In this document: piece after piece, positions 3,726 through 22,305 of the stretch
How positions within the stretch are numbered: the stretch's first letter is position 1
Layout: the number at the start of each line of letters is the position of its first letter
IMG/VR virus record: IMGVR_UViG_3300044952_001320
Span: 1 to 22,305 of that record
Length of the DNA: 22,305 nt
Source of the DNA: a virus
Direction: 5' to 3' (one strand)
The notes under the pieces: generated by a model
Seen by the model: the letters and a program-made list of their open reading frames with translations, nothing else
Told to the model about the DNA's origin: nothing
Database searches by the model: none
Position numbers and translations under genes: made by a program

Positions 3726-3731
3726 TATTTA
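3726..3731 (-). promoter_or_regulatory. Candidate late promoter core TAAATA (minus strand)
   Basis: Read on the minus strand, TAAATA overlaps the sirtuin stop codon and ends 30 bases before ATG 3695. The distance matches that of the plus-strand late promoter candidates ahead of the other MK[L/I]-leader genes. Confidence 0.45.
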
Positions 3732-4460
3732 GAAACCAAAATGCTCTTGTAAGATCTTGTTTATTTTGTGCAGTTGTTGAGTTACAGGCCCTAATAGGCA
3801 GTGAGTCCAGTGAGAAGGAACTATCGGAGGCAAGTAGCCGTCAATGTCCCGATTTAAATTTAACACGTTGATTACACTAGGACAATCCAACACTTTTGCG
3901 AAGTTATCAACAGGAACAACTGAGCCTGATGTTCCAATACACAGGAACAGGCTTTTGTCTGTAAGGCTGTCCAGTGTGTTGTAGAGATATTCGTATTTGG
4001 GTGCTGGTTCACCAAACAACACTACCGCAGGCTTGACATCAGTAAGGCTTTGGCAATTGGGACAACCTAGAGATATGTTGTATCGAGTGTAGCCAATATT
4101 CCAAACATAACTGCAATTTTCGCATTGCATTTCATCCAGCTGTCCGTGAACATGCACAACAGGGGTGCAACCAGCCTCCTCTAGCAAGAGGTCTGCATTT
4201 TGAGTTATCACTGTTGCACTGTATTTTCTCTGCCATTCTGCCACCTGTTTGTGGGCGGCGTTTGGCTGAAACTTCTGAAGCATTTCCCGTAAGTCGCTGT
4301 GAAATTCATTTACAATTTGGCTGTTTTGTCGCCAAGTGGAGTAGTTACTGTAAACCATTGGATCATAACGGCTCCATAAACCTTCACTATCTTCTCTAAA
4401 TGTGGGGATGCCGCTTTCGGCACTCAAGCCAGCGCCGCTGAAAATCAATAATTGGGTCAT
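3729..4460 (-). CDS. Sir2-family NAD+-dependent deacylase (sirtuin)
   Basis: A 243-residue protein from ATG 4460. A TTG at 4487 would add nine residues, but the family normally starts just before the GAG motif. All sirtuin hallmarks are present: GAGLSAESGIPTFR (9-22) for NAD+ binding; TQNAD (86-90) where most members have TQNID; HVHG with catalytic His105; a four-Cys zinc site (C113, C116, C133, C136); VLFGE (147-151); and GTSGSVVPV (176-184). The length matches a minimal bacterial CobB-type enzyme. It should remove acyl groups from lysines using NAD+; pure NADase activity is an alternative for some Sir2 domains. It heads a minus-strand block and is divergent from a gene encoding GNAT-like and ART-like domains. 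Acyl-lysine and NAD+ chemistry therefore cluster here. No clear promoter is visible for it. Confidence 0.92.
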   Translation of the reverse strand: MTQLLIFSGAGLSAESGIPTFREDSEGLWSRYDPMVYSNYSTWRQNSQIVNEFHSDLREMLQKFQPNAAHKQVAEWQRKYSATVITQNADLLLEEAGCTPVVHVHGQLDEMQCENCSYVWNIGYTRYNISLGCPNCQSLTDVKPAVVLFGEPAPKYEYLYNTLDSLTDKSLFLCIGTSGSVVPVDNFAKVLDCPSVINVLNLNRDIDGYLPPIVPSHWTHCLLGPVTQQLHKINKILQEHFGF

Positions 4461-4509
4461 GTTAAATTGTGTTGAAAATAGATTCAAGGTGCAACTCTAC
4501 AGTCGCAAG

Positions 4510-6566: not shown

Positions 6567-7201
6567 GTTATTTAAATCACAACATTCCAGTCGTCACATG
6601 CTTGATACGCAATGAGTATCTCTTTAACCACACTCAAGGGCATGGTGAGTTTACTCCTTGCGACGTTCACAGTGTTGCCAGCTTGCAAAAACGCACACCG
6701 TTATTTGAAGCATTTTTGGAAAACGGAGTCAACTGGACCCGCAGGCCCATAACCGCATTTTGCTGGAAACCAGATGCTCCAGTGAGACCTCTGCACGATC
6801 ATATGTATTGGGATTGTTTTAGTCCCTATATCGATGTACAAGTTCGGGCTAGATTGGCAGGGTTGCGGGCAGATTTGATCACATGGAAAGGTGAAAAACG
6901 TCAAGGTCATTACATGATGACATTGGATTGGAGTTGGGAAAACGCTGTAATGGCTGATCTCAACTTCAGCGAAACTCCAGAGCACAAGTGCGCTCACATG
7001 TTTCGCATGGATGAAGGCAACTATTACCTTTATCCTAACAACAGAATTGTTTGGCATGACAATGCTTGGGTGAAAAATCCCATCACACAAAATCCTGGTT
7101 ATTTGATAGACATGAACATCTACAGTGTGGAAAATGCTGTGAAGTTTTTCACAGATGATCGCTATGTAACAGGAATAGCCACTGAGGAAAAACAGCCATG
7201 A
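6563..7201 (+). CDS. Hypothetical protein, 212 residues, operon member
   Basis: Starts at ATG 6563, which overlaps the preceding stop as ATGA; an in-frame TTG at 6551 is less likely. It ends with another ATGA overlap to the next gene, so translation is coupled on both sides. The protein is rich in Trp, His and Asn. Features include VVTCLIRNEYLFN near the start, a His/Asp pair in PLHDHMYWDCF (about residues 75-85), and a C-terminal NIYSVENAVKFF. There is no MKL leader, signal peptide or membrane segment. I do not recognise a family. Being locked between two putative packaged multidomain proteins suggests a related role, such as a chaperone, immunity or assembly partner, but that is context only. 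Confidence 0.75.
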   Translation: MSYLNHNIPVVTCLIRNEYLFNHTQGHGEFTPCDVHSVASLQKRTPLFEAFLENGVNWTRRPITAFCWKPDAPVRPLHDHMYWDCFSPYIDVQVRARLAGLRADLITWKGEKRQGHYMMTLDWSWENAVMADLNFSETPEHKCAHMFRMDEGNYYLYPNNRIVWHDNAWVKNPITQNPGYLIDMNIYSVENAVKFFTDDRYVTGIATEEKQP

Positions 7202-9024
7202 AGTTACAGGAACTACTAGATTTTAACGCAGCTAATCTTGAAGAAAAATGGACCAAAAAGTATAAGAAAAGTATCAACTGCAACAGTCCCAAAGGGTTCA
7301 GCCAACGTGCTCACTGTGCTGCTAGACGCAAACGACAAAAGGGCGGAAAGACAACTAGCAATCCCTTGAATGAAAACAATAACGTAGAAATACACAACTA
7401 TAAAAAACTGGATCGCATCTTAGTTGCGTTGTGTAACCTAGTTGACACCAGACGAAAGAAAAACCCTGACAAATACGGATGGGTAGCCGCAGGGTTGTTG
7501 GATCCCCGCAACCGTCTTGTAATAGGTTTCAGCACATTTGCCAATGACAAATGGTATCATGCTGAACGATTGGCTATGAGGGCTTATCGTAAAAAATACG
7601 GAAGCATACCTGATGGCTGTATTATTGTAACCACATGCAGTCCATGCAGCGAGCAGATGCCAAGATATGGTGAAAGTTGTACTGACCTAATCAACAAGAG
7701 TCCTGTCAAAAAAGTCTATTGCGGTTACTCAGATACTACTCAATCCCAAAGTCAACGCACCTTCAATATTATGGTTACTGCTGATACAAACATACGAGAA
7801 CGGTGCCAAAAATTTGCTGAAAACTTTATGGATTGGGAAGCGCAATATTTGGATGAAAGCTTGCGTGATTGGTTCAAACAAAAATGGGTGCGATTTGGGA
7901 CAGATGGCAAGATCAGAGGCGACTGTGCTATAGGCAGTGAAGGCGAAGGCAAGCCCAAATGCCTGCCACAGCGGAAGGCTTGGGCACTGGGCAAGAAAAA
8001 ACGTGCAACTGCTGCTAGGCGCAAGCGTAGAGAAGATCCCAATCCTGAACGTGAAGGCAAGGCCCGGAACGTAGCCACAAAAGAAAGTGTTGGCTCTACA
8101 AAATTGGGAGATCTCTGCACTATCAAAACTAATTTTCCTGATGCTGACTTTTGGCTTGTGCGACGCAGTGATAGAACAAATGTAGGCACACCAACCAAAG
8201 AATTCAGTCCCTATCATATTGGAATCAAAGTCACAGCTACTGAACAGCTGATTCCTCAATATCTCTACTATATGATGATGCATCTCCACAACCAAGGCTA
8301 TTGGCAAACCAGGAGCATAGGCACCACGGCTCTCTTGAACATACGCACAGAAGATGTGAAAAACATCCAACTGGCTTTGACTGAACATGAGCTGAAAGAA
8401 AACTCCAGTTGTCCTCATTGTGGTGGCCAAATGGTTAACTACTCTATGCTCAGTGAAAAACAAGATGCCTGCTATTACAAAGTCAAGAGTCGCTACAAAG
8501 TTTGGCCCAGTGCCTATGCCAGCGGTGCATTAGTGCAGTGCAGGAAAAAGGGTGCCAAAAACTGGGGCAAGAGCAAGACAAATGAAGCTGCCCCATGGCT
8601 CGGGCAGGGAGATGAGCCGCTGCCCACCAAACTCTATCATGTCACACGCACACGAAACCGTTTGAGCATTCGCCAGAGAGGACTTGTTCCCAAAACCAAA
8701 GAGCACAAGAGAGTGTTCCGCAAGCCAGGTGTATTTGGCTTTGAAACATTTGAACAAGCTGAAGACTGGGCTTACTATTGGAGTCAAGATGATCGTGAGA
8801 GCATGGATATTTGGGAAATAGACGTTGAAGATACAAGTGATCTCACTCCAGACTCAGCATGGGATATTCAGCAAGATTACGATGCATGGGTAATCTACAA
8901 GCCAATTCCTGCAGCCAATGTGAGGCTGAAATTTACGCAACGCTGGCCAGAACCTCGGGGAAAGCCTTTTACAACGGTGAAAAAAATCCGCAACCTTGAA
9001 GAAGATCCTAATGAAACTGAATGA
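7198..9024 (+). CDS. Mosaic protein: Cys modules, cytidine-deaminase-like domain, HsdS-like recognition domain and ART-like domain
   Basis: 608 residues from ATG 7198 (ATGA overlap). In order: leader MKLQELLDF; a small basic Cys module (INCNSPKGFSQRAHC, 26-40); a zinc deaminase-like domain (about 68-180) with HAE at 121-123 and CSPC at 147-150, the CDA/dCMP deaminase signature; a basic linker module (KWVRFGTDGKIRGDC at 229-243, then a run of Lys/Arg to about 295). A domain at 300-400 resembles one target-recognition domain of a type I restriction S subunit (KLGDLCTI ... IPQYLYYMM ... IGTTALLNI). A CPHCGG knuckle (405-410) follows, then YKVWPSAYASGALVQCRK (433-450). A C-terminal region (478-578) begins LYHVTRTRN..SIRQRGL, like KptA/DarT-type ART folds. 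No methylase or restriction subunit is nearby. It is probably a DNA-associated packaged protein. The deaminase call is firm; the others are tentative. Confidence 0.72.
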   Translation: MKLQELLDFNAANLEEKWTKKYKKSINCNSPKGFSQRAHCAARRKRQKGGKTTSNPLNENNNVEIHNYKKLDRILVALCNLVDTRRKKNPDKYGWVAAGLLDPRNRLVIGFSTFANDKWYHAERLAMRAYRKKYGSIPDGCIIVTTCSPCSEQMPRYGESCTDLINKSPVKKVYCGYSDTTQSQSQRTFNIMVTADTNIRERCQKFAENFMDWEAQYLDESLRDWFKQKWVRFGTDGKIRGDCAIGSEGEGKPKCLPQRKAWALGKKKRATAARRKRREDPNPEREGKARNVATKESVGSTKLGDLCTIKTNFPDADFWLVRRSDRTNVGTPTKEFSPYHIGIKVTATEQLIPQYLYYMMMHLHNQGYWQTRSIGTTALLNIRTEDVKNIQLALTEHELKENSSCPHCGGQMVNYSMLSEKQDACYYKVKSRYKVWPSAYASGALVQCRKKGAKNWGKSKTNEAAPWLGQGDEPLPTKLYHVTRTRNRLSIRQRGLVPKTKEHKRVFRKPGVFGFETFEQAEDWAYYWSQDDRESMDIWEIDVEDTSDLTPDSAWDIQQDYDAWVIYKPIPAANVRLKFTQRWPEPRGKPFTTVKKIRNLEEDPNETE

Positions 9025-10123
9025 CCTACTGAACAAGCCTACCAGTAGCGTAGCTGAGCTGGCTAAAAAATACAAAGTGTCGCCAGCTGTTGTGGACCAG
9101 CAGCTAGCACAAGGCATTAAAGTAGAAATGGAGCACACTAAGTTGCGCAGTGTGGCACGAGAAATAGCCTTGGACCATTTGGGTGAGGACCTCCATTACT
9201 ATGAGAAGTTGAGCAAGATTGAAAAAATCAAAGTTCAAGAACATCAACTAGTTGAACTGTTTGACTTGAACAAGCCACCACAAGGAGTACAAGGTCCCAA
9301 TCTAAGATTTTCGCAGGGAAGGGTAGCATATTACGGTTTTGCAGTTGACGATAAAAAATATTTTGTTGAGTTTCATAACTTTCCTGAGCAAGATGTAGAG
9401 ATAGTTTTTGGTGATGAGCATGGTAACGTTGGATTGACGCACACAGGAAATGCCACCAAAGTTTTTTGGTCAGTTGCACAATGTCTAGTTGATTATTTGG
9501 AAAGGCATCCCAGTGTGCAAAAGATCTACTTCACATCGCATTCTGATGAGCCCAGTCGATTGAGACTGTACCACTCACTGAGTAACCGGTTGGCTCAACA
9601 GTTGGGATGGCATGCCAGCAGCAAAAAGGGTCGGAAAGATGTTGAATATTACGTTACCAAAGATCTATTGCGCTCACTTGATGAAAACTCACTCCTAGTA
9701 GAGCTGTTTGACTTGAGCAACGTGCCCGAAGGTGTGAGGCCTCCTGTATATGATTCTCAAGAAGGGGGTAATGACTACTATGTGTTTCGGGTTGATCAGA
9801 AAAGGTATACGTGTGTATTCGCTGACCTTGGAGATCAAACTTACGATTTCAAATTCCGAGACCCAGAGAAAAGAACAAGTATAACAGGTGCAGGAGATGC
9901 TGCCAAAGTATTTTGGGGTGTAGCTAAAACTATTGACATGTTTGTGAAATCACACAAGGTCAACATGCTCAAGTTCGGCGCTAGCGAGCCTAGCAGGCAA
10001 AAGCTTTACACTGTACTTAGTAAAAGGCTGGCAGAAACACTGGGTTGGAAAAGAGAAATAGTTAAACATCCTAGTGACCCTGCTACATACTTTAGGCTCC
10101 GCAACCCCAACTATCAATCTTAA
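9011..10123 (+). CDS. MKL-leader protein with DUF5661-like module and two Alt-N-like repeats
   Basis: 370 residues from ATG 9011, chosen because MKLNDLL matches the leader of its neighbours; it overlaps the previous gene by 14 bases. Residues 13-72 form a helical module (VAELAKKYKVS ... GIKVEMEHT ... IALDHLGED..YY). I associate it with the DUF5661 family of phages and plasmids (name from memory). Two copies of an alpha/beta domain follow, about 79-217 and 228-363. Each contains VELFDL, a YY.F.VD..(K/R)Y strand, a G(N/D)A.KVFW.VA helix, and SR.(R/K)LY..LS.RLA..LGW. The order of strands and helices recalls the region after the leader in T4 Alt and is also GNAT-like, but without a clear acetyl-CoA loop. 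No catalytic residues are evident. It is probably a packaged or head-associated protein of unknown activity. Confidence 0.72.
   Translation: MKLNDLLNKPTSSVAELAKKYKVSPAVVDQQLAQGIKVEMEHTKLRSVAREIALDHLGEDLHYYEKLSKIEKIKVQEHQLVELFDLNKPPQGVQGPNLRFSQGRVAYYGFAVDDKKYFVEFHNFPEQDVEIVFGDEHGNVGLTHTGNATKVFWSVAQCLVDYLERHPSVQKIYFTSHSDEPSRLRLYHSLSNRLAQQLGWHASSKKGRKDVEYYVTKDLLRSLDENSLLVELFDLSNVPEGVRPPVYDSQEGGNDYYVFRVDQKRYTCVFADLGDQTYDFKFRDPEKRTSITGAGDAAKVFWGVAKTIDMFVKSHKVNMLKFGASEPSRQKLYTVLSKRLAETLGWKREIVKHPSDPATYFRLRNPNYQS
9245..10099 (+). repeat. Tandem pair of Alt-N-like domains
   Basis: Residues 79-217 and 228-363 of the 9011 gene repeat the same domain. Shared anchors are VELFDL, the VD.K.Y strand, KVFW.VA, and PSR..LY..LS.RLA..LGW. 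Two further, more diverged copies lie at 12013-12870. Confidence 0.6.
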
Positions 10124-10126
10124 ATA
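10121..10126 (+). promoter_or_regulatory. Candidate late promoter core TAAATA
   Basis: CTTAAATA overlaps the stop of the 9011 gene; the core ends 27 bases before ATG 10154. The spacing matches the other candidates ahead of MKL-leader genes. Confidence 0.45.
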
Positions 10127-10153
10127 CAAACGTATTAATACCGGGTGGTTGGC

Positions 10154-10627
10154 ATGAAGCTGCAAGATCTACTACAAGAAAACACCAGTTTCAATAACTG
10201 GACACGTTTTACTGACGCCAGTCTTGAAGCTGACTTTCAGGAATACAAACAAAAAGAACAGCGTAAATGGAAACAACGAGCTGAGTTGATACAAGCCCGC
10301 TGGCCCTTGTTTCAAGACATACAAGAGTTTCGACAAGCCTTGAGCTCAGCCCCTGTTGTAGATGTTGACAGCTTGAGATCAGTGCAAAACCTCACTAAAA
10401 ATCGCAGTATTGCGGACATCAAAGACATGGTCAGCAGCTATGCATGGCCTCGAGATGTAGCTAGAATACAACAGGGTTACCAAGAAAACCACAAAATGCC
10501 TCTGCCCATTATTATAAAAGGGCAACAGGGCATGTGGATCATGGCAGGCAACACACGTCAAAGTGTGGCTAGAGTCCTGGGAATCACACCTCGCGCACTG
10601 TTAGTGGATGTAAGTGACAGGCCCTAG
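10154..10627 (+). CDS. Small MKL-leader protein with ParB/sulfiredoxin-like C-terminal domain
   Basis: 157 residues from ATG 10154; a GTG at 10145 would add three residues but would spoil the MKLQDLLQE leader. Leader residues 1-9 end in LQE, a plausible cleavage site for a T4 gp21-type prohead protease (consensus L/I-x-E). Residues 17-60 are strongly charged and helical. The C-terminal part (about 75-155) has the pattern of a ParB-like fold: PLPIIIKGQQGMWIMAGNTR near 115-135, then SVARVLGITPRALLVDV. The G-N-T-R turn sits where ParB/Srx proteins have G-x-x-R. It is short, has no HTH, and is unlikely to be a partition protein. The next gene begins with a related domain. Confidence 0.65.
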   Translation: MKLQDLLQENTSFNNWTRFTDASLEADFQEYKQKEQRKWKQRAELIQARWPLFQDIQEFRQALSSAPVVDVDSLRSVQNLTKNRSIADIKDMVSSYAWPRDVARIQQGYQENHKMPLPIIIKGQQGMWIMAGNTRQSVARVLGITPRALLVDVSDRP

Positions 10628-10632
10628 CTGGC

Positions 10633-10640
10633 AATAAATA
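10633..10640 (+). promoter_or_regulatory. Candidate late promoter AATAAATA
   Basis: AATAAATA differs from the T4 late element TATAAATA only at the first base and fits the looser NATAAATA form described for T4-like cyanophages. It ends 28 bases before ATG 10669. Confidence 0.55.
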
Positions 10641-10668
10641 TCTCAGGACTTTTATAAATGAGACTGAA

Positions 10669-13509
10669 ATGAAGTTGTGGGATTTTCTACAAGAAGTAAA
10701 AATAGACAACAAGCAGGGTATTGGGGAAGTTCCTGACAACAACAATGTTGATTATCTAGGATTGCGAGTGCTCATGCGCCCCAGTGTGTTTTTGGGACTT
10801 GCATCAACATTGTACCGAGAACAAGCTTCAAGCGTGGACTATATCAAACAACAGTTGGCCCAAGGACGGGGCATAGCCAGCCCTTGGTTGGTAATTGATA
10901 TTCCTCAAGCTTGGGGGCAAAACAACCTTGATGCGCCAGCCCGAGTCGTCAGTCATGAAGGCCGCAACAGAATGTATGCAGTGCTGGAAACAGAGGGTGA
11001 CGAGCCCATTGAGACCCATTTGTTTTTCTCAGGTGGGTTGCGCAACAGGCACATCAAGCCCAACTGGATTGAGAACATGAATAAGAGTTTGGTGCCACAA
11101 CGCAGCAATCAGAGAGTTCCTGGGCCATTTTTCCAAACTTTGAATCAGCAGCCCAATACCTTATCTGAAGAAACCGCTGAGCAAAGAGCCACATATAGAG
11201 CTAGCTGGCGAGGTAGATTGGGTGAATATGATCCCAACTTCTTTGACGTGGAAGAAGACTCATTGGAAGATGAAAAAGGTCAAGTGATCGCAGTCAAAGA
11301 CGTTCTACGTCCCAAGAGAAATTTGAATTCAAAATTGAGCTTTGAACCCAATCCTCAACTTGTGTATAGAGGCATGAGCAATGCTGAATTTGAAAACATC
11401 AAAAAAACAGGGGTAATCAAAAGCAAAGGTGATTACAATTTACAAGGACAAGAGGGCCTAACCTACTTTACCACTCGTCCCGAAACAGCTGACAGCTATG
11501 CTCACAGTTTTGCACCTTGGAGTCAAAAAGCCAACTGGGACAAACCAGCTTGGGTGATTGCTGTGCCCAAACCAGACCCATCCCAAATTGTTCATGTACC
11601 AGGCACTGGCTCTCACGAAGTTGGAGTAAAAGGTGTTATAAATGCTGATCAAATAAAAGAGATATACCGCGGAAAAGTTGTGGAGTACGATCCTGGTGTC
11701 CCCAACCAAGTAGCCCCCTCTGCATGGTTGCATTGGGAAAAAGTTCCTGTTAAAATAGTTGTTACAGAACGCAACGGTGCACCTGGCACCCTAAAAGCAA
11801 AAATAAGTAAACGATATGGTGGCAGTGTTACTTGTGCAAAAGCCAAAAAGTTAAAATCCCGTAAAACATCTACAGCCCTAGACAAACGACAAGCCAACTG
11901 GTTTCTCAACATGCAGGACTGCAATGAAAGCCAGGGGGTCCAACCTATAACTGAACTTGTGTCACTGCCTAAAACACCTGTTGAATGGAAACAACAACAG
12001 TTTAACTTTGGTAGGAGATATCTAACAGCCTTTGAGCTTGATAATCATCTTGTTGAAATACGTATGGATCAAGATCGCAGTCATTATGCTTTACAAAACG
12101 CCATGTTACTTGACCCTATACAAATAAATCCCCAAGCTCACGGCTACACTATTTTGTTTATGGTTGATGATGAAATAATAAAAACTGGACTACTTGGTCA
12201 AAAAAGTTCCACGCTGTTGGCACAAACTTTTGGTAGAATACTGCAATGGTTGAAAACGCACAAATGGGATTATATAATATTCACTGGAGCCCGAGGCAGC
12301 AGAAACAAACTATACGGCATGATTAGTCGACAGCTTGCTAGAGAGTTTGGAGCAAAACTGCATTTTGATTTTGACACCAGTGACTTTGTGGTTTACAAAC
12401 CATCAACATTTGCACAAAAACTTGTGCGCGAAGCACTAACTTGGCAGTTACCCAGCAACAACTGGACTGTTCAATCAAAGTATGATCGCGATATCACATA
12501 TAAGTTTGCTGTGGACGGTGAAAAATATTTCATGGAAATCGTGAACATTCCCGAACCCAACAACCGTGGCATTTATGACATTGAGTTTTTCCATGAAGAA
12601 CATGGCATGGATATAACAGGATTAGGTGTCAGTCATGCAATGAAAGTTTTCAGTGCTGTCAAACAGCTGGCCCGTGACGCTCAAGGACGTTTAACTGACT
12701 TGCCGATCAATGCTTGGTTTTTCAGTGGTCGTGGAGCAAGCCGACAAAAACTTTATTTACGGTTGGCACAGCAACTAGCTGAAGAAATGGGTTGGAAGCT
12801 TACTACTACTCGGGCACTCATGCCCTTGCAGGGTGACAGCAACATGCAGGGCTATTTGATATACAGTCCCAAAATTGAAAATCGCATATTGAATCCCAAA
12901 CTTAGGGACATACAAGAAGCCGAATCCGCAGGATCAGCACTGACAATATTTGATATTGATAGCACGCTTATGAAAACGTCTGCCGCTGTATATGTAGTCA
13001 ACACTCAAGGTAAACGAGCCAAACTCACAGCTCAAGATTTCAATAGTTATCAACTGAAACCCGGAGAATATTTTGATTTTCAGGAGTTTGAAGACAGCGA
13101 TTTGTTTCACGACACAAGTGAACCCATAGCACAAATATGGCGCACTGCACAAAACACCTTGGCCAATACCGGGCGCCGACCAGGAAGTCGAGTTGTAATA
13201 ATCACCGCACGTGGACCATTCAACAACACAGAAAAGTTTTTGAAGACATTTGAAAAACACGGTTTGGACATGACCAAAGTGCGGGTGTTTACTGTGGGTG
13301 GTGCTAGAAACAAAAAACCACTTATCCGGCAGTTATTGCAACAACACAACTATACGGAAACACGTATCTTTGATGATCATCTAGGAAATCTGCGAGACTT
13401 TTTAAGTCTGCACCCGGAGTTTCCCCAGGTAACTTTTAAAGCTTTTGCAGTGGGCGCAGCAGGTAATGTTGGTCAACCTGTTGTCATACAAGGAACAACC
13501 GATGAGTAA
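10669..13509 (+). CDS. 946-residue mosaic: ParB-like, ART-like, two Alt-N-like repeats and HAD phosphatase
   Basis: The largest protein here, from ATG 10669; no strong Shine-Dalgarno is seen. Leader MKLWDFLQE ends in an L-Q-E cleavage-like site. Residues 30-130 form a ParB/Srx-like domain with SHEGRNRMYAV (95-105). Residues 176-363 form an ART-like domain nearly colinear with that of the 4545 gene: Arg234 in VYRGM, TYFTTR (265-270), and SHE with Glu317. The first acid of the ExE pair is Ser315, so catalysis may be altered. Residues 372-418 form a basic/Cys module (ISKRYGGSVTC ... LDKRQANWFLN). Residues 449-578 and 591-734 are two Alt-N-like repeats. Residues 757-925 form a HAD phosphatase: FDIDST with Asp762/Asp764, ITARG with Thr846, Lys882/883, and DDHLGN (902-907), so all four motifs are present. 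It may be a packaged enzyme with several activities acting early in infection. The HAD call is firm. Confidence 0.75.
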   Translation: MKLWDFLQEVKIDNKQGIGEVPDNNNVDYLGLRVLMRPSVFLGLASTLYREQASSVDYIKQQLAQGRGIASPWLVIDIPQAWGQNNLDAPARVVSHEGRNRMYAVLETEGDEPIETHLFFSGGLRNRHIKPNWIENMNKSLVPQRSNQRVPGPFFQTLNQQPNTLSEETAEQRATYRASWRGRLGEYDPNFFDVEEDSLEDEKGQVIAVKDVLRPKRNLNSKLSFEPNPQLVYRGMSNAEFENIKKTGVIKSKGDYNLQGQEGLTYFTTRPETADSYAHSFAPWSQKANWDKPAWVIAVPKPDPSQIVHVPGTGSHEVGVKGVINADQIKEIYRGKVVEYDPGVPNQVAPSAWLHWEKVPVKIVVTERNGAPGTLKAKISKRYGGSVTCAKAKKLKSRKTSTALDKRQANWFLNMQDCNESQGVQPITELVSLPKTPVEWKQQQFNFGRRYLTAFELDNHLVEIRMDQDRSHYALQNAMLLDPIQINPQAHGYTILFMVDDEIIKTGLLGQKSSTLLAQTFGRILQWLKTHKWDYIIFTGARGSRNKLYGMISRQLAREFGAKLHFDFDTSDFVVYKPSTFAQKLVREALTWQLPSNNWTVQSKYDRDITYKFAVDGEKYFMEIVNIPEPNNRGIYDIEFFHEEHGMDITGLGVSHAMKVFSAVKQLARDAQGRLTDLPINAWFFSGRGASRQKLYLRLAQQLAEEMGWKLTTTRALMPLQGDSNMQGYLIYSPKIENRILNPKLRDIQEAESAGSALTIFDIDSTLMKTSAAVYVVNTQGKRAKLTAQDFNSYQLKPGEYFDFQEFEDSDLFHDTSEPIAQIWRTAQNTLANTGRRPGSRVVIITARGPFNNTEKFLKTFEKHGLDMTKVRVFTVGGARNKKPLIRQLLQQHNYTETRIFDDHLGNLRDFLSLHPEFPQVTFKAFAVGAAGNVGQPVVIQGTTDE
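11194..11757 (+). repeat. ART-like domain segment, copy 2
   Basis: Codes for residues 176-363 of the 10669 gene and is the partner of 5910-6473. Conserved blocks include WRGRL.EYDPNFFDVEED, PNPQLVYRGMSNAEFE, GQEGLTYF, PAWVIAVPKPDPS and HEVG. The flanking domains differ completely from those around copy 1. Confidence 0.75.
12013..12870 (+). repeat. Second pair of Alt-N-like domains
   Basis: Residues 449-578 and 591-734 of the 10669 gene. Anchors: FTGARGSRNKLYGMISRQLA in one and FFSGRGASRQKLYLRLAQQLA in the other, compared with PSR.(R/K)LY..LS.RLA in the 9011 gene. The first copy is the most degenerate of the four. Confidence 0.5.
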
Positions 13510-14897: not shown

Positions 14898-17672
14898 ATG
14901 ACTTATATTGATGGATATGTTGATAGAGAAAAGAACATTGTCCACATCGTGGAACGCACAGCTCAAGGCGTGAGAAACTTTGTAACATATCCCACTCAAT
15001 ATGCTGTGTATTGGCCTCAGCCTCAAGGCAAATACACAAGTATTTTTGGTGATCGACTGGCAAAGTTCCAAACATCAAGACATCAAGAGTTTCAACGTGA
15101 ACTGCGCATGCTCAGTCGCGAGACTCTCTTGGAGAGTGATATTGATCCCATATTTAGGTGTCTGTATCAAAACTATCGTCAAAGCCCCACTCCCCAGTTA
15201 CATGTGGGGTTCTTTGACATTGAAACTGACTTTGATCCCGATCGTGGCTACAGCACACCTGAGGAAGCCTTTAATGAAATAACAGCAGTAAGTGTGTATC
15301 TTGCATGGATGCAACGATGCTTTACCTTGGTAGTTAAACCTCGCAGTTGGTCACAAGAGCAAGCACAAACTGTTGTTGAGCAGTTTCCTGACACCATGCT
15401 TTGCGATACTGAATCCGATCTATTGGATATTTTTCTACAGTTGATTGAAGATTGTGATATCATAAGCGGGTGGAACTCAACCACTTATGATATGCCCTAC
15501 ATCTATAAGCGAATTCTCTTAACTTTGGGAAAAGAACACACACGTAGATTGTGCTTGTGGAATCGACAACCCACCAAACGCGAGTTTGAAGCTTATGGGA
15601 AGCGACAAGTCACATACGAAATTGTGGGCCGAGTGCATCTTGACTATCTTGATTTGTATCGCAAGCACACTTATCAAGAACTCCACAGCTACAAATTGGA
15701 CTTTGTGGGCGAGCATGACACTGGTGATCGCAAGGTGCCATATGAAGGCAGTTTGGACCAGCTTTATAATCGAGACTTTGGCAAGTTTATCGAATATAAC
15801 CGACAAGACGTCATGCTGTTGGTCAAGATTGATCAAAAACGTCGGCTTATTGAACTTTGCAACAATCTAGCTCATGAAAACTGTGTGCTGTTGGCTACAA
15901 CACGTGGCAGTGTCAAGCTTATTGACCAAGCAATTGTAAACGAAGCTTGGGACAACAACTTGATTGTTCCCAATCGTCCTCAACATGCAGATGATCGTGA
16001 TGATGACGTAGTAGCTGAAGACGATGACGACGACGATTTTGAGCAACAGGACTTGGGTATTGTGGGTGCGTATGTTGCTGATCCCGTGCAGGGCATGCAT
16101 GAATGGATTGGTGGCGTGGACATCAACAGTCTATATCCCAGCACTATTCGCGCGCTGAACATGAGTCCCGAGACGATTGTGGGTCACATTAGACCCGAGC
16201 AAACGCAAGCTTTGATTAAAAAGCGCATGACACAAGAAAAGAGAACATTTGCTGAATCTTGGCAAGGCATGTTTGGCACCTTGGAGTTTCAGGAAGTTCA
16301 AAAACGCAGTGATATTCCCTTGATTGTGGATTTCACTGAGGGTGGCAACTTGACAGTCACAGCTGGTGAGCTTGCACAACTGGTATATAATGGCAATCGT
16401 GGTTGGATTTTGAGTGCTAATGGAACTATTTTTGCCCAAAGCAAAACCGGAATTATTCCGCAGCTATTAGACAAATGGTATTCCGACAGGAAAAAACTTC
16501 AAGCCGAAATGAGAAAATATGCCAAAATGGCAGATGAAGAATCAGATATTTCTCAAAAAGATGAATATCAAAGGCTTACAGGATTTTATGACCAGCGCCA
16601 GTTGATCCAAAAAATCAAATTAAATAGCCTGTACGGGAGTTTGTCAAACGCCGGAAGTAGATTTTTTGATGAGCGAGTAGCGCAAAGTGTTACGCTAACT
16701 GGTCGCTGTATTGTTAAACACATGGGTAGCAAAATCAATGAGATAATAACTGGTGATTACAACCATAAAGGACCGGCGCTTATTTATTCTGATACCGACA
16801 GCCAATATTTCTCAGCGTATCCTGTAATGAAAGATCTTCCTGAGTTTCAAGACTTTGCTTGGACAAAAGAAGCCGTTGTGGATCTTTATGATAAAATTGC
16901 TGATGTAACCAATGCTAGCTTTCCAGAGTTTATGAATCAAGCATTCAACTGCCCGGAAAAGAATGGTGCTATTATCCGTGCAGGTCGTGAACTTTGTGCT
17001 GAGCGTGGTATTTTTATCAAGAAAAAACGCTATGCAGTTTTGATTTTTGACAAAGAAGGCAAGCGCAAAGACACAGATGGCAAACCCGGTGAAATTAAAG
17101 CCATGGGGCTGGACCTCAAGCGCAGTGATACGCCTCGTGTAGTTCAAGAGTTTCTCATGAGCGTGCTTACACAAGTGTTGACTGGCAAAAATCAACAACA
17201 AGTGATCGACAACATATTTGAGTTCCGAAAAGAGTTCTCTAGCTGGCCCGGCTGGATAAAAGGCACTCCAAAAAGAGTTAACAAACTCAGTCATTATCAA
17301 CAAGCCAAAACTACAAATGAAACTTGGAGTTTGACTGATAAAACCAAAAAGACCAACTTGCCAGGGCATGTGCGAGCTAGTTTGAATTGGAACAAGCTGC
17401 TGAATCTGTATAACGATCATGGCAGTGTGAAAATTCAAGACGGCAGTAAAATCATTGTGTGTAAACTTCGCGATAATTCTTTGAACATGACCAGCATTGC
17501 CTATCCCATTGATCAAGATCATCTCCCTGACTGGTTCAAACAACTGCCGTGGGATCACGCCGAAATGGAAACTGCACTAATAGACAAGAAGATTAAAAAT
17601 CTCTTGGGAGTTTTGGACTGGGATCTTGACAGCAGTCGTAAAAAATCATCGGCAGGCAGTTTGTTTTTCTAA
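14898..17672 (+). CDS. 43: Family B DNA polymerase, T4 gp43 type, with 3'-5' exonuclease
   Basis: 924 residues (T4 gp43 is 898) from ATG 14898, with GAGGT at 14888-14892. The exonuclease is intact: FFDIETD with Asp107/Glu109 (Exo I), GWNSTTYDMPYI (Exo II), YNRQDVMLL (Exo III). Polymerase motifs: DINSLYPS with Asp408 (motif A), KLNSLYGSLSN (motif B), and YSDTDS with Asp632/Asp634 (motif C). The enzyme should be an active proofreading replicase. Between Exo III and motif A, residues 365-381 carry a run of Asp/Glu (ADDRDDDVVAEDDDDDDFE region), an unusual acidic insert. The C-terminus KKSSAGSLFF looks like the terminal clamp-binding peptide of T4/RB69 gp43. That fits the sliding clamp gene immediately downstream. 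Confidence 0.96.
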   Translation: MTYIDGYVDREKNIVHIVERTAQGVRNFVTYPTQYAVYWPQPQGKYTSIFGDRLAKFQTSRHQEFQRELRMLSRETLLESDIDPIFRCLYQNYRQSPTPQLHVGFFDIETDFDPDRGYSTPEEAFNEITAVSVYLAWMQRCFTLVVKPRSWSQEQAQTVVEQFPDTMLCDTESDLLDIFLQLIEDCDIISGWNSTTYDMPYIYKRILLTLGKEHTRRLCLWNRQPTKREFEAYGKRQVTYEIVGRVHLDYLDLYRKHTYQELHSYKLDFVGEHDTGDRKVPYEGSLDQLYNRDFGKFIEYNRQDVMLLVKIDQKRRLIELCNNLAHENCVLLATTRGSVKLIDQAIVNEAWDNNLIVPNRPQHADDRDDDVVAEDDDDDDFEQQDLGIVGAYVADPVQGMHEWIGGVDINSLYPSTIRALNMSPETIVGHIRPEQTQALIKKRMTQEKRTFAESWQGMFGTLEFQEVQKRSDIPLIVDFTEGGNLTVTAGELAQLVYNGNRGWILSANGTIFAQSKTGIIPQLLDKWYSDRKKLQAEMRKYAKMADEESDISQKDEYQRLTGFYDQRQLIQKIKLNSLYGSLSNAGSRFFDERVAQSVTLTGRCIVKHMGSKINEIITGDYNHKGPALIYSDTDSQYFSAYPVMKDLPEFQDFAWTKEAVVDLYDKIADVTNASFPEFMNQAFNCPEKNGAIIRAGRELCAERGIFIKKKRYAVLIFDKEGKRKDTDGKPGEIKAMGLDLKRSDTPRVVQEFLMSVLTQVLTGKNQQQVIDNIFEFRKEFSSWPGWIKGTPKRVNKLSHYQQAKTTNETWSLTDKTKKTNLPGHVRASLNWNKLLNLYNDHGSVKIQDGSKIIVCKLRDNSLNMTSIAYPIDQDHLPDWFKQLPWDHAEMETALIDKKIKNLLGVLDWDLDSSRKKSSAGSLFF

Positions 17673-17729: not shown

Positions 17730-18473
17730 ATGACACTGAAAGACATCTTTAAAGAAATCAACACATACGTAGCTAATACTGGTATGTTTGAAAAGATCAA
17801 GATCAATGTTGACAACAATATTGTCAGCGTGGAAGCTTTTGAGAAAGAGCGGGGTTTGGTAAAAGGCAAGTTCACCAAAGCAGTTACTGAAATCGCAGGA
17901 AGTTTTGGGCTTAAAAATCTCAACATGCTGAACATCATTACAAATGATCCCGAATACTTGGCTTCCGAAAGCACTATTACAGTTAATACTGAAAGTCGCG
18001 ATGGGCAAACTTATCTTGCCAGTTTGACTTATGTGAACAAAAGTCAAACTGAGATTTACTATCGCTTTATGTCCTCGGACCTGCTGCCCAAAAATACTCA
18101 AGTTCGTGAGCCACAGTATGAAGTCACAGTGAATCCTGCACGCAGCAGCATTCAACAGTTTATTTGGGCAGGTAATGGTCTCAGCAGTGTGGAGCAATAC
18201 TTTAATCCACAGATACGTGATCGCCAACTACGGTTTTGCATTGGTGAAGACGGCGCACAAACCAGCCGTGGCGGTGTGGTGTTTGCACAAAACATTGATG
18301 CCAAAATGCAATGTGATTTTCATTGGAAAGTCAGCGACATTCAAACTGTGCTCAAGCTAAATGATTCTGCTGATTGCGAAGTGGCTATTAGTGGAGCAGT
18401 GGGTGCTATTCAGATCAAGTTCCAAACTGGTCAAGCACAGTGGCAGTATGTGTTTCCCGGTAAAGTAAAATAA
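17730..18473 (+). CDS. 45: Sliding clamp, T4 gp45 type
   Basis: 247 residues (T4 gp45 is 228), with AAGGAA at 17718-17723 six bases before ATG 17730. No enzyme motifs are expected in a clamp; the call rests on overall pattern and position. The centre (GLKNLNMLNIITND near residues 60-73) corresponds to the DLNSFLSILSL region of T4. The last third has a typical clamp ending: a hydrophobic strand, KVSDIQTVLKLNDSADCEVAISG, then a short strand and QWQYVFPG. It should form a trimeric ring that tethers gp43. In T4 it also activates late transcription through gp33/gp55, which would suit the late promoters seen in this window. Placement right after the polymerase supports the call. Clamp-loader genes are not in view. 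Confidence 0.75.
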   Translation: MTLKDIFKEINTYVANTGMFEKIKINVDNNIVSVEAFEKERGLVKGKFTKAVTEIAGSFGLKNLNMLNIITNDPEYLASESTITVNTESRDGQTYLASLTYVNKSQTEIYYRFMSSDLLPKNTQVREPQYEVTVNPARSSIQQFIWAGNGLSSVEQYFNPQIRDRQLRFCIGEDGAQTSRGGVVFAQNIDAKMQCDFHWKVSDIQTVLKLNDSADCEVAISGAVGAIQIKFQTGQAQWQYVFPGKVK

Positions 18474-18484
18474 GCTAATCTCCG

Positions 18485-18515
18485 TGCAGTGCTAAATAAC
18501 AAGCACTGCATTTTT
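18485..18515 (+). terminator. Rho-independent terminator after the clamp gene
   Basis: A perfect 9-bp stem (TGCAGTGCT at 18485-18493 pairing with AGCACTGCA at 18502-18510) has an 8-base loop, AAATAACA, followed by five T (18511-18515). It lies 12 bases after the clamp stop and ends just before the start of the next gene. Confidence 0.8.
18493..18498 (+). promoter_or_regulatory. TAAATA late-promoter-like core inside the terminator hairpin
   Basis: GCTAAATA spans the end of the left stem arm and the loop. Its core ends 20 bases before ATG 18519, closer than the other candidates. It could let late transcription restart at plcP after early transcripts end here. It could also be chance. Confidence 0.3.
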
Positions 18516-18518
18516 CAC

Positions 18519-19289
18519 ATGAAACCCAGTTATAGAACTATTTTTGTTAGTGATTTGCATTTAGGCGCTGGTGAAAGCCAAGCCCAAGTCTTTGCAGATT
18601 TTTTAAAGAACCATGATTGCGACAATCTCTACATGGTTGGAGACATGATCGATGGTTGGAAGCTGCAAAGGCGCTGGTATTGGCCCCAAAGTCACAGCAA
18701 TGCACTGCGTAAAGTTTTAACCAAAGCAAACAGAGGTTGTCGAGTAGTTTATATAACTGGGAACCATGATGAGTTTATAAGAAGCTTTTTACCAGATTTT
18801 GATAGTTTTGGTGCAATTGAAATCGTAAACCACACACTGTATCAAGATTTACAAGGCCGGCAATGGTTTGTCACACATGGTGACATGTTTGATGCTGTTA
18901 CTCGTCACTGGAAGTGGATAAGCAAGGTGGGAGATAGACTTTACACCATGCTTTTGGAGCTCAACAGGATTTTGGCTTGGGCGAGACGACTTTTCGGCTT
19001 GGGATATTGGAGTCTCAGTCAATATGCCAAACAAAACACCAAACAAGCAGTTAGTTTTATAGCAAAGTTTGAAGAACACCTAGCACGTCACGCACACACT
19101 CAAAGTTGTCACGGAATTATATGCGGTCATATTCATACTCCGGCAATCAAAAAAATACAAGATGTAACATACATGAACACAGGTGATTTTTGTGAAACAT
19201 GTAGTGCATTAGTGGAAACTCATGAAGGTGTTTGGCAGTTGCTTCAGCTACAATCAGATAATACATGGAAAGTCATCCAGCAGTTATGA
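18519..19289 (+). CDS. plcP: PlcP-type metallophosphoesterase (phospholipase C of lipid remodelling; LpxH-like)
   Basis: 256 residues from ATG 18519; an in-frame GTG at 18489 lies inside the terminator hairpin. No Shine-Dalgarno is visible. The calcineurin-type metal site is complete: SDLHLG (Asp12, His14), GDMIDGW (Asp42), GNHDEF (82-86), THGD (His120, Asp122) and GHIHTP (His204, His206). WYWPQSH after GDMIDGW, YWSLSQ.AK, and the C-terminal YMNTGDFCETCSA are the pattern I know from Sinorhizobium PlcP and its marine relatives, often annotated as UDP-2,3-diacylglucosamine hydrolase. PlcP hydrolyses phospholipids such as phosphatidylcholine and PE to diacylglycerol during phosphate starvation. 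The overlapping downstream Agt-like gene strongly favours PlcP over LpxH. The protein should act at the inner face of the cytoplasmic membrane. Confidence 0.82.
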   Translation: MKPSYRTIFVSDLHLGAGESQAQVFADFLKNHDCDNLYMVGDMIDGWKLQRRWYWPQSHSNALRKVLTKANRGCRVVYITGNHDEFIRSFLPDFDSFGAIEIVNHTLYQDLQGRQWFVTHGDMFDAVTRHWKWISKVGDRLYTMLLELNRILAWARRLFGLGYWSLSQYAKQNTKQAVSFIAKFEEHLARHAHTQSCHGIICGHIHTPAIKKIQDVTYMNTGDFCETCSALVETHEGVWQLLQLQSDNTWKVIQQL

Positions 19290-20299
19290 AAATATGTATT
19301 GTAACAGACAGCTGGCAACAGATTAATGGTGTAAGCACTACTTTAAAAAACACAGTAAACTGTTTGATAACCATGGGACATGAAGTTTTAGTTATTGAAC
19401 CCAGTGTGTTTAAAACTTGCAAGTTTAAGTTTTATCCCGACATTGATTTTTCCTGGAATATTTGGAAAGTAGGCAAATTAATTCAAGATTTCCAGCCTCA
19501 TGCTATTCACATAGCAACAGAAGGACCCTTGGGTATTGCGGCTAGATGGTATTGCAAGGTTAACAAACGCCAAATACCACATAATACCAGTTATCATACC
19601 AACTTTCCGGAATATTTAAAGTTATCGTATGGCATCCCCTTGACTGTTAGCTATAAAGTACTGAAGTTATTTCACAAGTTCAGTTGCAGGGTTTTAGTTA
19701 CTAACCATGATATGAAAACTCAACTGGATCAACGTGGGTTGAAAAATCTTGTAGTTTGGAGCCGAGGAGTAGATCTTTCCTTGTTTGCTCCTGACAGACG
19801 ATCGCAACAAGTTCAAACAAATTTGGGACCTGGACCTCGGATTCTGTGTGTGAGTCGAGCAAGCAAAGAAAAAAATCTTGATGCGTTTTGTCAGTTGTCT
19901 GTGCCGGGAACAAAAATACTTGTGGGCGATGGACCTGAGTTAGCACGCTTGCAAACACAGTATCCTGATGTAAAATATTTGGGTTGGAAAACCGGCGCTG
20001 ATTTGGCTGAACTATATGCCAATGCAGATGTTTTTGTGTTCCCTAGTGTTACTGATACATTTGGTGTTGTGATGTTGGAAAGCATAAGCACAGGCACTCC
20101 GGTAGTTGCTTATAATGCCATAGGTCCACGGGAAGTAATAGAACAAGGCATTAACGGCATCATAAGCCAAGATTTAGCACAAGCTATTCCACAGGCTTTG
20201 CTTTTGGATCGCCTCACGGTGAGACAAAGCAGTCTAAAATGGACGTGGAACAAATGCACAGAAGTTTTTTTGGAAAACTTAGTTGCAATAAAGACTTGA
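19286..20299 (+). CDS. agt: Agt-type glycosyltransferase of glycolipid synthesis (GT4, GT-B fold)
   Basis: 337 residues from ATG 19286, which overlaps the plcP stop as ATGA; an ATG at 19265 is in frame but is not the coupled one. N-terminal acceptor half: VTDSW.QINGV (6-16), HIATEGPLG (75-83), TSYHTNFPEY (101-110), VVWSRGVD (156-163). C-terminal donor half: VSRASKEKNLD (189-199), LVGDGPE (212-218), and TDTFGVVMLES (256-266), the D/E-x7-E nucleotide-sugar motif. This is the pattern of the agt genes that follow plcP in alphaproteobacteria. Agt attaches glucose or glucuronic acid to diacylglycerol, making phosphorus-free membrane lipids from PlcP's product. Length and motifs are complete. Plain GT4 members acting on other acceptors remain possible, but the gene pair argues against it. 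Confidence 0.82.
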   Translation: MKICIVTDSWQQINGVSTTLKNTVNCLITMGHEVLVIEPSVFKTCKFKFYPDIDFSWNIWKVGKLIQDFQPHAIHIATEGPLGIAARWYCKVNKRQIPHNTSYHTNFPEYLKLSYGIPLTVSYKVLKLFHKFSCRVLVTNHDMKTQLDQRGLKNLVVWSRGVDLSLFAPDRRSQQVQTNLGPGPRILCVSRASKEKNLDAFCQLSVPGTKILVGDGPELARLQTQYPDVKYLGWKTGADLAELYANADVFVFPSVTDTFGVVMLESISTGTPVVAYNAIGPREVIEQGINGIISQDLAQAIPQALLLDRLTVRQSSLKWTWNKCTEVFLENLVAIKT

Positions 20300-20355: not shown

Positions 20356-20721
20356 ATGACAGATTGGGTCTGGGTAACATTTCAACGGGAAGGTATTCAC
20401 AAATATCCCGCAGCACTTACCGATCCAGCCCTGGAGTCAGTGCGATTCCTAGGCTTTGAACATCGTCACATGTTTCATTTCCGAGTATGGATTGAAGTAC
20501 ATCACGACGATCGTGATCGAGAGTTTATCATGGAAAAGCGTTGGATGGAAGGTCTATATGGATCTGGTACACTGCAACTGGATTATCAAAGCTGTGAAAT
20601 GATAGCCCGTGGACTGGCTGCACAGTTGCAACAGCGTTATGCCGGTGAACATCGCAAGCTTATGATTGAAGTAAGCGAAGATGGTGAAAATGGTTGCTTG
20701 ATGGAGTTTACAGCCGAATGA
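20356..20721 (+). CDS. QueD/PTPS-like T-fold protein (tentative)
   Basis: 121 residues, with AAAGG (20344-20348) seven bases before ATG 20356. I recall close relatives as hypothetical proteins in T4-like marine phages. The layout matches 6-carboxytetrahydropterin synthase (QueD): an early His (His15 in GIHKYP), a paired His-x-His (His36, His38 in EHRHMFHF) where QueD has LHGH, DREFIMEK (52-59) like the D-F-x-x-L-K segment, QSCEMIA (about 79-85) like PTSE.LA, and a final EVSEDGENGC with Glu where QueD has KET.TAGC. The catalytic Cys of QueD is not evident, so activity may differ. The gene overlaps a glycosyltransferase by ATGA, and a TGT/DpdA-like gene follows. That supports a 7-deazaguanine link. 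It is remote homology by eye. Confidence 0.5.
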   Translation: MTDWVWVTFQREGIHKYPAALTDPALESVRFLGFEHRHMFHFRVWIEVHHDDRDREFIMEKRWMEGLYGSGTLQLDYQSCEMIARGLAAQLQQRYAGEHRKLMIEVSEDGENGCLMEFTAE

Positions 20722-21809
20722 CTGTAAACATTTGGATTTTCAGCTTAGAGCCTTTAGACAATCGTTACACTGCACAGTGGCATCATTGGGTGCCACGAAC
20801 ATTGACAGACATGGTTGGTCAGCAACAGCTGGATGTTCGTGTTCACCAAGTTGACGGCAAGCAAAACACTACAAAAACCACAGCTGGTGGCTTTTTAAAC
20901 TTCGTAGATACCAACTTTTGGAAAAGCAGTCAGCTATGTGCTTTTTTGGACTTGCACAATCAAGGTCAAACAACACCTCATGATGTGTTTTTGTTCACCG
21001 ATGCTTGGAATCCTGTGATTTTGCAACTGAGATACATAAGTGATCTCATGGGATACAACTGGCGCATGCACGGGTATTGGCATGCGGGGGCATACGACCC
21101 CACGGATATTTTGGGTGTTAAAATGAACAAGCCTTGGCCTTGGCATTTGGAACGTAGTTTATACTATGCCTGTGACAAGAACTGGTTTGCTACTGATTTT
21201 CACAGGCGCATGTTCTTAAACAATCTGGGAATCATGGCTAGAGATGAACATCGCAGCGGACTAAGCGGACAGCCTCATGATGCTATTATAGCTGCCATGA
21301 ACAACCTGCCCGAGGTTGCCAACAAGGCTGGAGTTATTTGGCCGCATCGCTACAACAGTGACAAACAGCCCGAGATTGCAGAAAGTCTTGCCAGTAACAT
21401 GACAGTGCCCTGGTTGCTGACACAAAAGCTCAACCTGGACAAACAGGAATATTATCAAGTGTTAACACAACACCAAGTTTTGTTTTCCTGTAGCTTGCAT
21501 GAAAATCTTGGCATCAGTGTCATGGAAGGTGTTCTGTGCGATGTGATTCCAGTGTTACCACAGCGGTGCAGTTATCAGGAAATGTACTTGCCGGAGTTTC
21601 TCTATCCTGCCAAATGGACTGCAAACTGGGATCAGTTTTTGGCTCATCGCGAACAGCTAGAGGATTTTATCATGCATCGAATAAACAATCGGGAAAGATA
21701 TCAATCAGCTATGAACAAGCAAAAGCAACTGCTGAAAGATCGATATCTGCAAGCAAGCACCATGTATAATAGTTTGCTGCAAGATATTGTCACCACAGCC
21801 AAGATATAG
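20718..21809 (+). CDS. GT-B glycosyltransferase resembling tRNA-queuosine mannosyltransferase
   Basis: 363 residues from ATG 20718 (ATGA overlap with the previous gene). The N-terminal half contains NIWIFSLEPLDNRY, LFTDAWNP (92-99) and several Trp/His-rich strands. The donor half has WPHRYNSDKQPE (208-219), with the Arg and Lys expected to hold nucleotide-sugar phosphates, and SLHENLGISVMEG (259-271), an E-x7-E motif (Glu262, Glu270). PVLPQRCSYQEMY then follows. The S.HE..G....E...C...P..P.R..Y.E order resembles the queuosine-tRNA mannosyltransferase group (GTDC1/QTMAN), which glycosylates a 7-deazaguanine nucleoside. In this operon, that resemblance hints at modification of a deazaguanine in DNA or tRNA. 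A role in surface glycan or hydroxymethyl-base glycosylation is also possible. Confidence 0.65.
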   Translation: MTVNIWIFSLEPLDNRYTAQWHHWVPRTLTDMVGQQQLDVRVHQVDGKQNTTKTTAGGFLNFVDTNFWKSSQLCAFLDLHNQGQTTPHDVFLFTDAWNPVILQLRYISDLMGYNWRMHGYWHAGAYDPTDILGVKMNKPWPWHLERSLYYACDKNWFATDFHRRMFLNNLGIMARDEHRSGLSGQPHDAIIAAMNNLPEVANKAGVIWPHRYNSDKQPEIAESLASNMTVPWLLTQKLNLDKQEYYQVLTQHQVLFSCSLHENLGISVMEGVLCDVIPVLPQRCSYQEMYLPEFLYPAKWTANWDQFLAHREQLEDFIMHRINNRERYQSAMNKQKQLLKDRYLQASTMYNSLLQDIVTTAKI

Positions 21810-21820
21810 TAAACTCAATC

Positions 21821-22305
21821 ATGATACCTACCACATTTCACCTAGCAAACGACGTAAATCCTCAGGCTAGAGATTTTGCTGTGAGGCAAAAAGACTATGC
21901 TGTGTTTTTGCCCAGCATTTCAGCTATCTATGTTCGTCAGGCCAGCGACTCCAACAGTCGCGTGCCACAAGCACTGCCCGGAGGACTGACAGATCTTGAT
22001 TTTTTAAATCCCAAGACAAACTTGTTTTACTATCCCGCTGCCCTTTACAGCAGTGGGCATAGTGTATGGGACATAAATCAAAGCAATCAGCAAGAAAGCA
22101 TGGTTCAGCAGCGAGATCGTTCCCGTACTGTAATTGTTGGTGACAGCGGTGGCTATCAAATCGCAACTGGCGTGTTAAAGTGGCCCTGGCAGAAAAAGGC
22201 ACAGTGGACTGACAGCGATTGGACTAGAGAAAAAGACAAGATCCGCTTGCAAATTCTTCGTTGGCTGGAGCACACCACTGACTACAGCATGGTGCTGGAT
22301 GTGCC
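21821..22305 (+). CDS. TGT/DpdA-like transglycosylase, N-terminal half (runs off the window)
   Basis: Starts at ATG 21821, eleven bases after the glycosyltransferase stop, and stays open to the right edge (161 codons). The segment VGDSGGYQ (residues 106-113) matches the TDSGGFQ motif of tRNA-guanine transglycosylases, whose Asp reads the base. MVLDV (157-161) matches the second base-contact Asp (MAFDE in TGT). The usual early TGT signatures are absent, and the long N-terminal section before DSGG is unlike standard bacterial TGT. This fits the phage DpdA relatives that insert 7-deazaguanines into DNA. The catalytic nucleophile should lie beyond the edge. TGT superfamily is fairly secure; a DNA rather than tRNA target is inferred from phage context. 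Confidence 0.68.
   Translation, partial: MIPTTFHLANDVNPQARDFAVRQKDYAVFLPSISAIYVRQASDSNSRVPQALPGGLTDLDFLNPKTNLFYYPAALYSSGHSVWDINQSNQQESMVQQRDRSRTVIVGDSGGYQIATGVLKWPWQKKAQWTDSDWTREKDKIRLQILRWLEHTTDYSMVLDV

Follow-up and report, generated by a model that had tools for sequence, protein, structure and literature searches.

A plcP–agt gene pair in large T4-like phages as a probable virally encoded lipid-renovation operon

Introduction

Phages infecting cells in phosphate-poor waters have a high demand for phosphorus to build their DNA, and the membrane lipid is one of the larger phosphorus stores of a cell. Cyanophages and pelagiphages carry phosphate-uptake genes, such as pstS, phoH and others.

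In bacteria starved of phosphate, the plcP–agt gene pair converts membrane phospholipids to glycolipids that contain no phosphate, by a well-established pathway (PMC4796936, PMC8231724, PMC9239053, PMC8528852). The Pseudomonadota operon, typified by those of Candidatus Pelagibacter HTCC7211, Methylosinus trichosporium OB3b and Pseudomonas aeruginosa (PA3219–PA3218), is the closest described counterpart of the viral locus reported here, which displays the same families, gene order, strand and active-site residues; among the bacterial loci that we examined, agt lies just 3′ of plcP in 54 of 80. The viral pair differs from this operon in being carried by phages, in the separate clade formed by its Agts and in being devoid of a Pho box, and a subset of the viral versions is additionally joined to a phage pstS gene and, less certainly, to a gene for a nucleotide-sugar dehydrogenase.

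Three sets of phage genes invite further comparison. The aim probably common to the pair and the phage pstS and phoH genes is more phosphate in infected cells, and pstS is found beside the pair in some phages; however, the products of pstS and phoH act on uptake from outside, whereas those of the pair would tap phosphate already held in the lipid of the host membrane. Freshwater pelagimyophages code for a stearoyl-CoA desaturase and FabF (PMC7029224), which, like the pair, are phage-encoded proteins acting on host membrane lipids, but these alter the acyl chains, whereas the pair would swap the headgroup and remove phosphorus. Finally, genes termed lpxH in viromes are filed under lipopolysaccharide biosynthesis, whereas the evidence assembled here for plcP–agt points to phospholipid turnover; lpxH is the name that such genes receive, and the corresponding gene of the SAR11 phage Mosig EXVC030M codes for a member of the PlcP family, 46% identical to the protein under study. 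Our literature search, covering openly licensed papers, found no description of plcP in phage genomes and, in line with the initial annotation of this DNA, no virus-encoded lipid-renovation operon.

The plcP–agt locus and its phage setting

The window, i.e., the whole stretch of 22,305 bases that was analyzed, is an IMG/VR virus record, and the longer records available for its relatives indicate that it is a fragment. The pair is embedded in the following arrangement:

14898..17672, + strand: T4-type family B DNA polymerase gene (phrog_262, 668 bits)
17730..18473, + strand: conserved phage gene, phrog_12062, directly upstream of plcP–agt
18484..18516, + strand: stem-loop followed by AUUUUU (z −4.7), between the upstream gene and plcP
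18519..19289, + strand: plcP-like gene, 256 amino acids, ATG start, coding for a PlcP-family calcineurin-fold metallophosphoesterase with all metal ligands intact
19286..20299, + strand: agt-like gene, 337 amino acids, coding for a GT4 enzyme of the Agt clade, its start ATG lying within the ATGA at 19286–19289 and thus overlapping plcP
20356..20721, + strand: conserved phage gene, phrog_17812, downstream of plcP–agt

Both open reading frames of the pair and their ATGA overlap are as the initial annotation had them, and longer versions are also offered from upstream starts, GTG 18489 for plcP and ATG 19265 for agt. The nearest named relatives of the polymerase come from jumbo phages of Sinorhizobium and Agrobacterium (44–48% identity), and still closer ones (50–53%) are encoded on viral contigs measuring 322, 335 and 338 kb; hence, the window most likely derives from the genome of a large T4-like phage, with no structural gene recognized in its 22,305 bases. 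The phrog_12062 gene lies near the pair in relatives too. A hairpin occurs at the same place before plcP in two relatives (L012 and L125), and that of the window is a probable terminator of the upstream gene; accordingly, plcP–agt probably opens a transcription unit or forms one of its own. Scans near the pair for T4 late promoters (TATAAATA) and for sigma-70 promoters gave no signal above chance.

Affinities and active sites of the two proteins

The first protein is a member of the PlcP phospholipase C family and, by analogy with its bacterial homologues, is predicted to hydrolyze PE, PG or PC. Pfam recovers only Metallophos families for it. The claim that its binuclear metal site is intact holds: the motifs DLH (12–14), GD (42), GNHD (81–84), THGD (119–122) and GHIH (203–206) are all present, and the metal-ligand columns D12, H14, D42, N82, H83, H120, H204 and H206 are invariant across 57 viral and bacterial relatives. 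Its best NCBIfam matches are LpxH models, at scores far under their cut-offs (46.7 versus 190 bits and 57.5 versus 134 bits, the cut-off of the LpxH model TIGR01854 being 190.35 bits); within the same genomes, the LpxH-model scores are 231–345 bits for LpxHs and 34–62 for bacterial PlcPs. The initial annotation had proposed a phylogeny with LpxH as a check, and the resulting tree sets five LpxHs apart from all PlcPs with an SH-aLRT support of 100, the window protein grouping with its viral relatives on the PlcP side. Likewise, the GNHD motif is seen in 95 of 95 viral and 80 of 80 cellular PlcPs, as against GNRD in all five LpxHs. The AlphaFold model of the protein (pLDDT 89) adopts the calcineurin fold, and its nearest match among solved structures is LpxH (Z 18.7, rmsd 3.8 over 193 residues), with no PlcP named among them; a modeled fold that is shared with LpxH does not decide the substrate.

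The second protein belongs to the Agt clade of GT4 glycosyltransferases and is predicted, again from characterized relatives, to synthesize glycosyl- or glucuronosyl-diacylglycerol. In the SAR11 enzyme GTcp, the catalytic dyad is formed by His104 and Asp256, and mutations have shown R190, K195, E264, T162, R163 and W320 to be essential for the binding of the UDP-sugar and diacylglycerol (PMC8231724). When these residues are mapped onto the viral protein via the order of motifs and a Pelagibacteraceae homologue, rather than via the sequence of GTcp itself, H104 and D257 are present, the latter within FPSVTDTFG (252–260), which fits the FPSXTDTFG motif. The stretch SRASKEKN (190–197) departs at two positions from the GRVAXEKN consensus, with Arg191 and Lys196 kept, and E265, R160 and W321 are also retained; Thr162 is replaced by Ser, as in several bacterial Agts. 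The protein is 41–45% identical to most plcP-adjacent bacterial Agts, with a few cellular plcP-adjacent glycosyltransferases as low as 26–27%, and at most 30% identical to the other GT4 enzymes of six genomes. The tree places the window copy in a clade of 49 sequences, all of them viral (support 97), which is united with the plcP-linked cellular Agts at a support of 99, leaving the other GT4 transferases of the six genomes outside. This placement, together with the GTcp-essential residues kept but for the one Thr-to-Ser change, sustains the earlier assignment to the Agt-type diacylglycerol glycosyltransferases, and an identity as a surface-polysaccharide glycosyltransferase was rejected on the tree and on the identity to paralogues.

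Occurrence and linkage among viruses

A search of viral contigs for the same adjacent pair, which had likewise been proposed, found it on more than 100 distinct viral sequences. A scan with the PlcP alignment recovered at least 565 relatives; among the best 80 of these, Agt is encoded at most 400 bases downstream in 40 and at most 1.3 kb downstream in 8 more, and in about 15 of the remaining loci a gene for a GT2-family glycosyltransferase takes the place of agt. A second scan with the Agt alignment only, blind to PlcP, yielded 80 loci; in 78, plcP precedes agt in the same orientation, at a distance of no more than 400 bases in 72 of these, and one of the two exceptions is cut by the end of the contig. 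Altogether, we count about 118 distinct viral plcP–agt pairs at 95% Agt identity, though these samples are skewed toward relatives of the window and therefore measure linkage rather than provide a census.

The records bearing the pair have a clear phage complexion. They reach 338 kb, and many of them also carry terminase, T4-type capsid and polymerase genes: the terminase TerL was detected on 10 of 34 records in one test set and 10 of 24 in another, and the T4-type capsid protein gp23 on 10 of the 14 largest, with no matches in 14 control genomes. Ribosomal protein L16 was found on none of the 37 records tested. Beyond these contigs, the PlcP family is represented in phage Mosig, where its gene adjoins a pstS-family gene, and by a distant relative in phage S-SRM01; no Agt partner was found across either whole phage, though a distant one is possible.

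Three records filed as phage were set aside: L008 (MT836169.1), filed as a bacteriophage, reads like a Bacteroidetes chromosome, and L009 (CAKLQH020000017.1) and its sister record read like an Acinetobacter chromosome. In the first of these, the gene for a PlcP relative precedes another kind of glycosyltransferase-like gene.

The GT2-family gene seen with agt-less viral plcP, which gives a weak GT21 match, follows plcP directly in L020, L022, L028, L029 and L047; the same order recurs in L053, L054, L064, L065, L068, L072, L084 and others. Its product is perhaps an alternative glycolipid synthase. Separately, six loci (L032, L039, L040, L044, L056 and L097) code just 3′ of plcP–agt for a protein combining CHASE2 and adenylate/guanylate cyclase domains (e.g., L097:5468–7519), an unusual signaling gene for a phage.

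Age, selection and regulation

The viral plcP and agt genes are under strong purifying selection: dN/dS among closely related viral pairs is 0.03–0.09 for plcP and 0.08–0.15 for agt, and both enzymes are therefore maintained. Synonymous sites are saturated when the window is compared with the relative nearest to it, so no ratio is given for these two. These low values and the recurrence of the same gene order on more than 100 viral sequences also mean that the pairing is not due to chance. Moreover, since the viral Agts form a clade of their own, the module is old in phages.

The regulatory picture is a different one from that of bacteria. Pho boxes with at least 11 of 14 matches were found in 0 of 38 regions upstream of viral plcP genes versus 8 of 35 bacterial ones, and the best candidate upstream of the plcP of the window, with 9 of 14 matches, is no better than those in shuffled sequence. 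Given that the Pho box of the bacterial operons is missing, the phage probably controls the pathway itself, without the starvation signal of the host. The pair would work like the bacterial operon, yet we do not class it as a member of the PhoB/Pho regulon. The standing of the module as an old phage lineage and the missing Pho boxes both go beyond what the initial annotation had offered.

Phosphate supply and the alternatives

We propose that PlcP would cut the phosphate-bearing headgroup off host glycerophospholipids, leaving diacylglycerol in the membrane. With a UDP-sugar of the host as donor, Agt would then add glucose, or glucuronic acid, to this diacylglycerol. The freed phosphorylated headgroup could enter the metabolism of the cell and thereby phage DNA synthesis, while the glycolipid would preserve the bilayer; the phage probably runs this lipid program in infection without awaiting host starvation. 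The reactions of both enzymes are here inferred from their characterized bacterial homologues. On balance, we consider it probable that plcP and agt form a phage-borne operon for lipid renovation that serves phosphate supply with the bilayer kept intact, which suggests that large T4-like phages mine the phosphate of the host membrane without sacrificing that membrane. The initial annotation is thus confirmed in its observations and supported in its interpretation; that the pair is a "complete switch", and to what end, we infer.

The strongest argument for a phosphate purpose is the linkage to pstS, which is present in a subset of the phages and supports this purpose as the likely benefit. The order pstS–plcP–agt is observed in five phage loci (L025, L034, L061, L107 and L108), and PstS beside the pair scores 363–379 bits, the curated cut-offs being 205 and 339. 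Among the 37 records tested, pstS exceeds the model cut-off in four, and the 22,305-base window has none. In three of the same loci (L061, L107 and L108), a relative of nucleotide-sugar dehydrogenases is encoded a few genes past the pair (138 bits, below the cut-off of 190); such an enzyme could provide UDP-glucuronate, which Agts are known to use. Counting against the proposed mechanism are the many viral plcP genes close to that of the window that have a GT2 glycosyltransferase gene, or no recognized one, in place of agt, as well as the small number of records with pstS. The want of Pho boxes in the viral copies implies that any link to starvation does not lie in regulation.

The main rival to the phosphate benefit accepts that lipids are renovated and sees the gain in a changed envelope, with phosphate release as a by-product: by modifying the charge of the surface, the display of receptors or the properties of the membrane, glycolipids might exclude competing phages, protect the cell against membrane-active attack or modulate lysis. 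The viral copies without a Pho box are compatible with such a role, and there are precedents for it: glycolipids alter the sensitivity of P. aeruginosa to antimicrobial peptides (PMC8528852), lipid remodeling has been argued to affect phage receptors (PMC9804370), and pelagimyophages possess further glycosyltransferases whose presumed target is the envelope (PMC7029224). However, an envelope benefit would not predict pstS adjoining plcP–agt on several phage contigs, or plcP in Mosig, and we regard it as an unlikely, albeit serious, explanation.

A second alternative, that the pair acts on surface polysaccharide or lipopolysaccharide as an LpxH-like lipid A enzyme with a core or O-antigen transferase, draws on existing annotations: the Mosig homologue is labeled a UDP-2,3-diacylglucosamine hydrolase, lpxH is counted among lipopolysaccharide genes in virome studies (PMC10653327, PMC9611531), and LpxH provides the solved structures nearest to the PlcP model. 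Against this, the tree, the GNHD-versus-GNRD distinction and the model scores all put the first protein outside LpxH, the identities of the glycosyltransferase favor the plcP-linked Agts over the other GT4s, and an IMG/VR scan for true LpxH in viral contigs, which was limited by its pattern and is no proof of absence, found no relative. The trees have largely refuted this alternative, which we rate as very improbable. Many virome lpxH calls are, we think, probably plcP.

That the pair is a recently acquired passenger from a host chromosome without a selected function, or mis-binned bacterial DNA, is scarcely credible: the pair is common in Pseudomonadota chromosomes and the window has no recognized structural gene, but the viral Agts group in a single supported clade separate from the cellular ones, dN/dS is low, and the terminase, gp23 and polymerase genes on the same contigs, along with the absence of ribosomal L16 where tested, rule out bacterial contamination.

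Taking the phosphate-supply proposal further, we lean toward a broader picture in which T4-like and jumbo phages have long possessed their own version of lipid renovation, which in some lineages makes up a phosphate module together with pstS and possibly a gene for a UDP-sugar dehydrogenase; it would operate independently of PhoB, channel membrane phosphorus into phage DNA and lie hidden as lpxH in surveys. If true, drawing on membrane lipid would be a new way to finance virus production, infected cells and their debris would be altered in lipid and phosphorus content, and genes entered as lipopolysaccharide genes in viromes would prove to be misinterpreted. The proposal lends itself to direct testing, as an established expression and lipidomics assay exists for the bacterial enzymes.

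Other genes in the window and its relatives

The polymerase gene is intact in the window and is interrupted or in two to three pieces in the records of L012, L026, L125, L277, L278 and L282, suggesting inteins or introns in these close relatives. The regions downstream of the pair, 20724–22305 in the window and 8303–9928 and 10321–10768 in L005, code, by reading only, for a glycosyltransferase-looking protein without a family match, a tRNA-guanine transglycosylase/DpdA-like protein and, in L005, a GTP-cyclohydrolase-like protein. These genes possibly belong to a 7-deazaguanine DNA modification pathway.

On the minus strand, at 3729–4487, the window codes for a Sir2-family NAD-dependent deacylase (Pfam SIR2, phrog_2162). 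The plus-strand segment at 4545–13509 holds a row of unrelated multi-domain phage proteins, parts of which look like GNAT, deaminase, DUF6934 and ADP-ribosyltransferase domains, and which share a similar short N-terminus of the MKLxxLL or MKINEII type. Similar N-termini recur at L108:4999, L061:5911, L097:5007 and L025:7498, and this shared element looks like a targeting tag, which perhaps directs the proteins into the capsid in the manner of T4 Alt and internal proteins.
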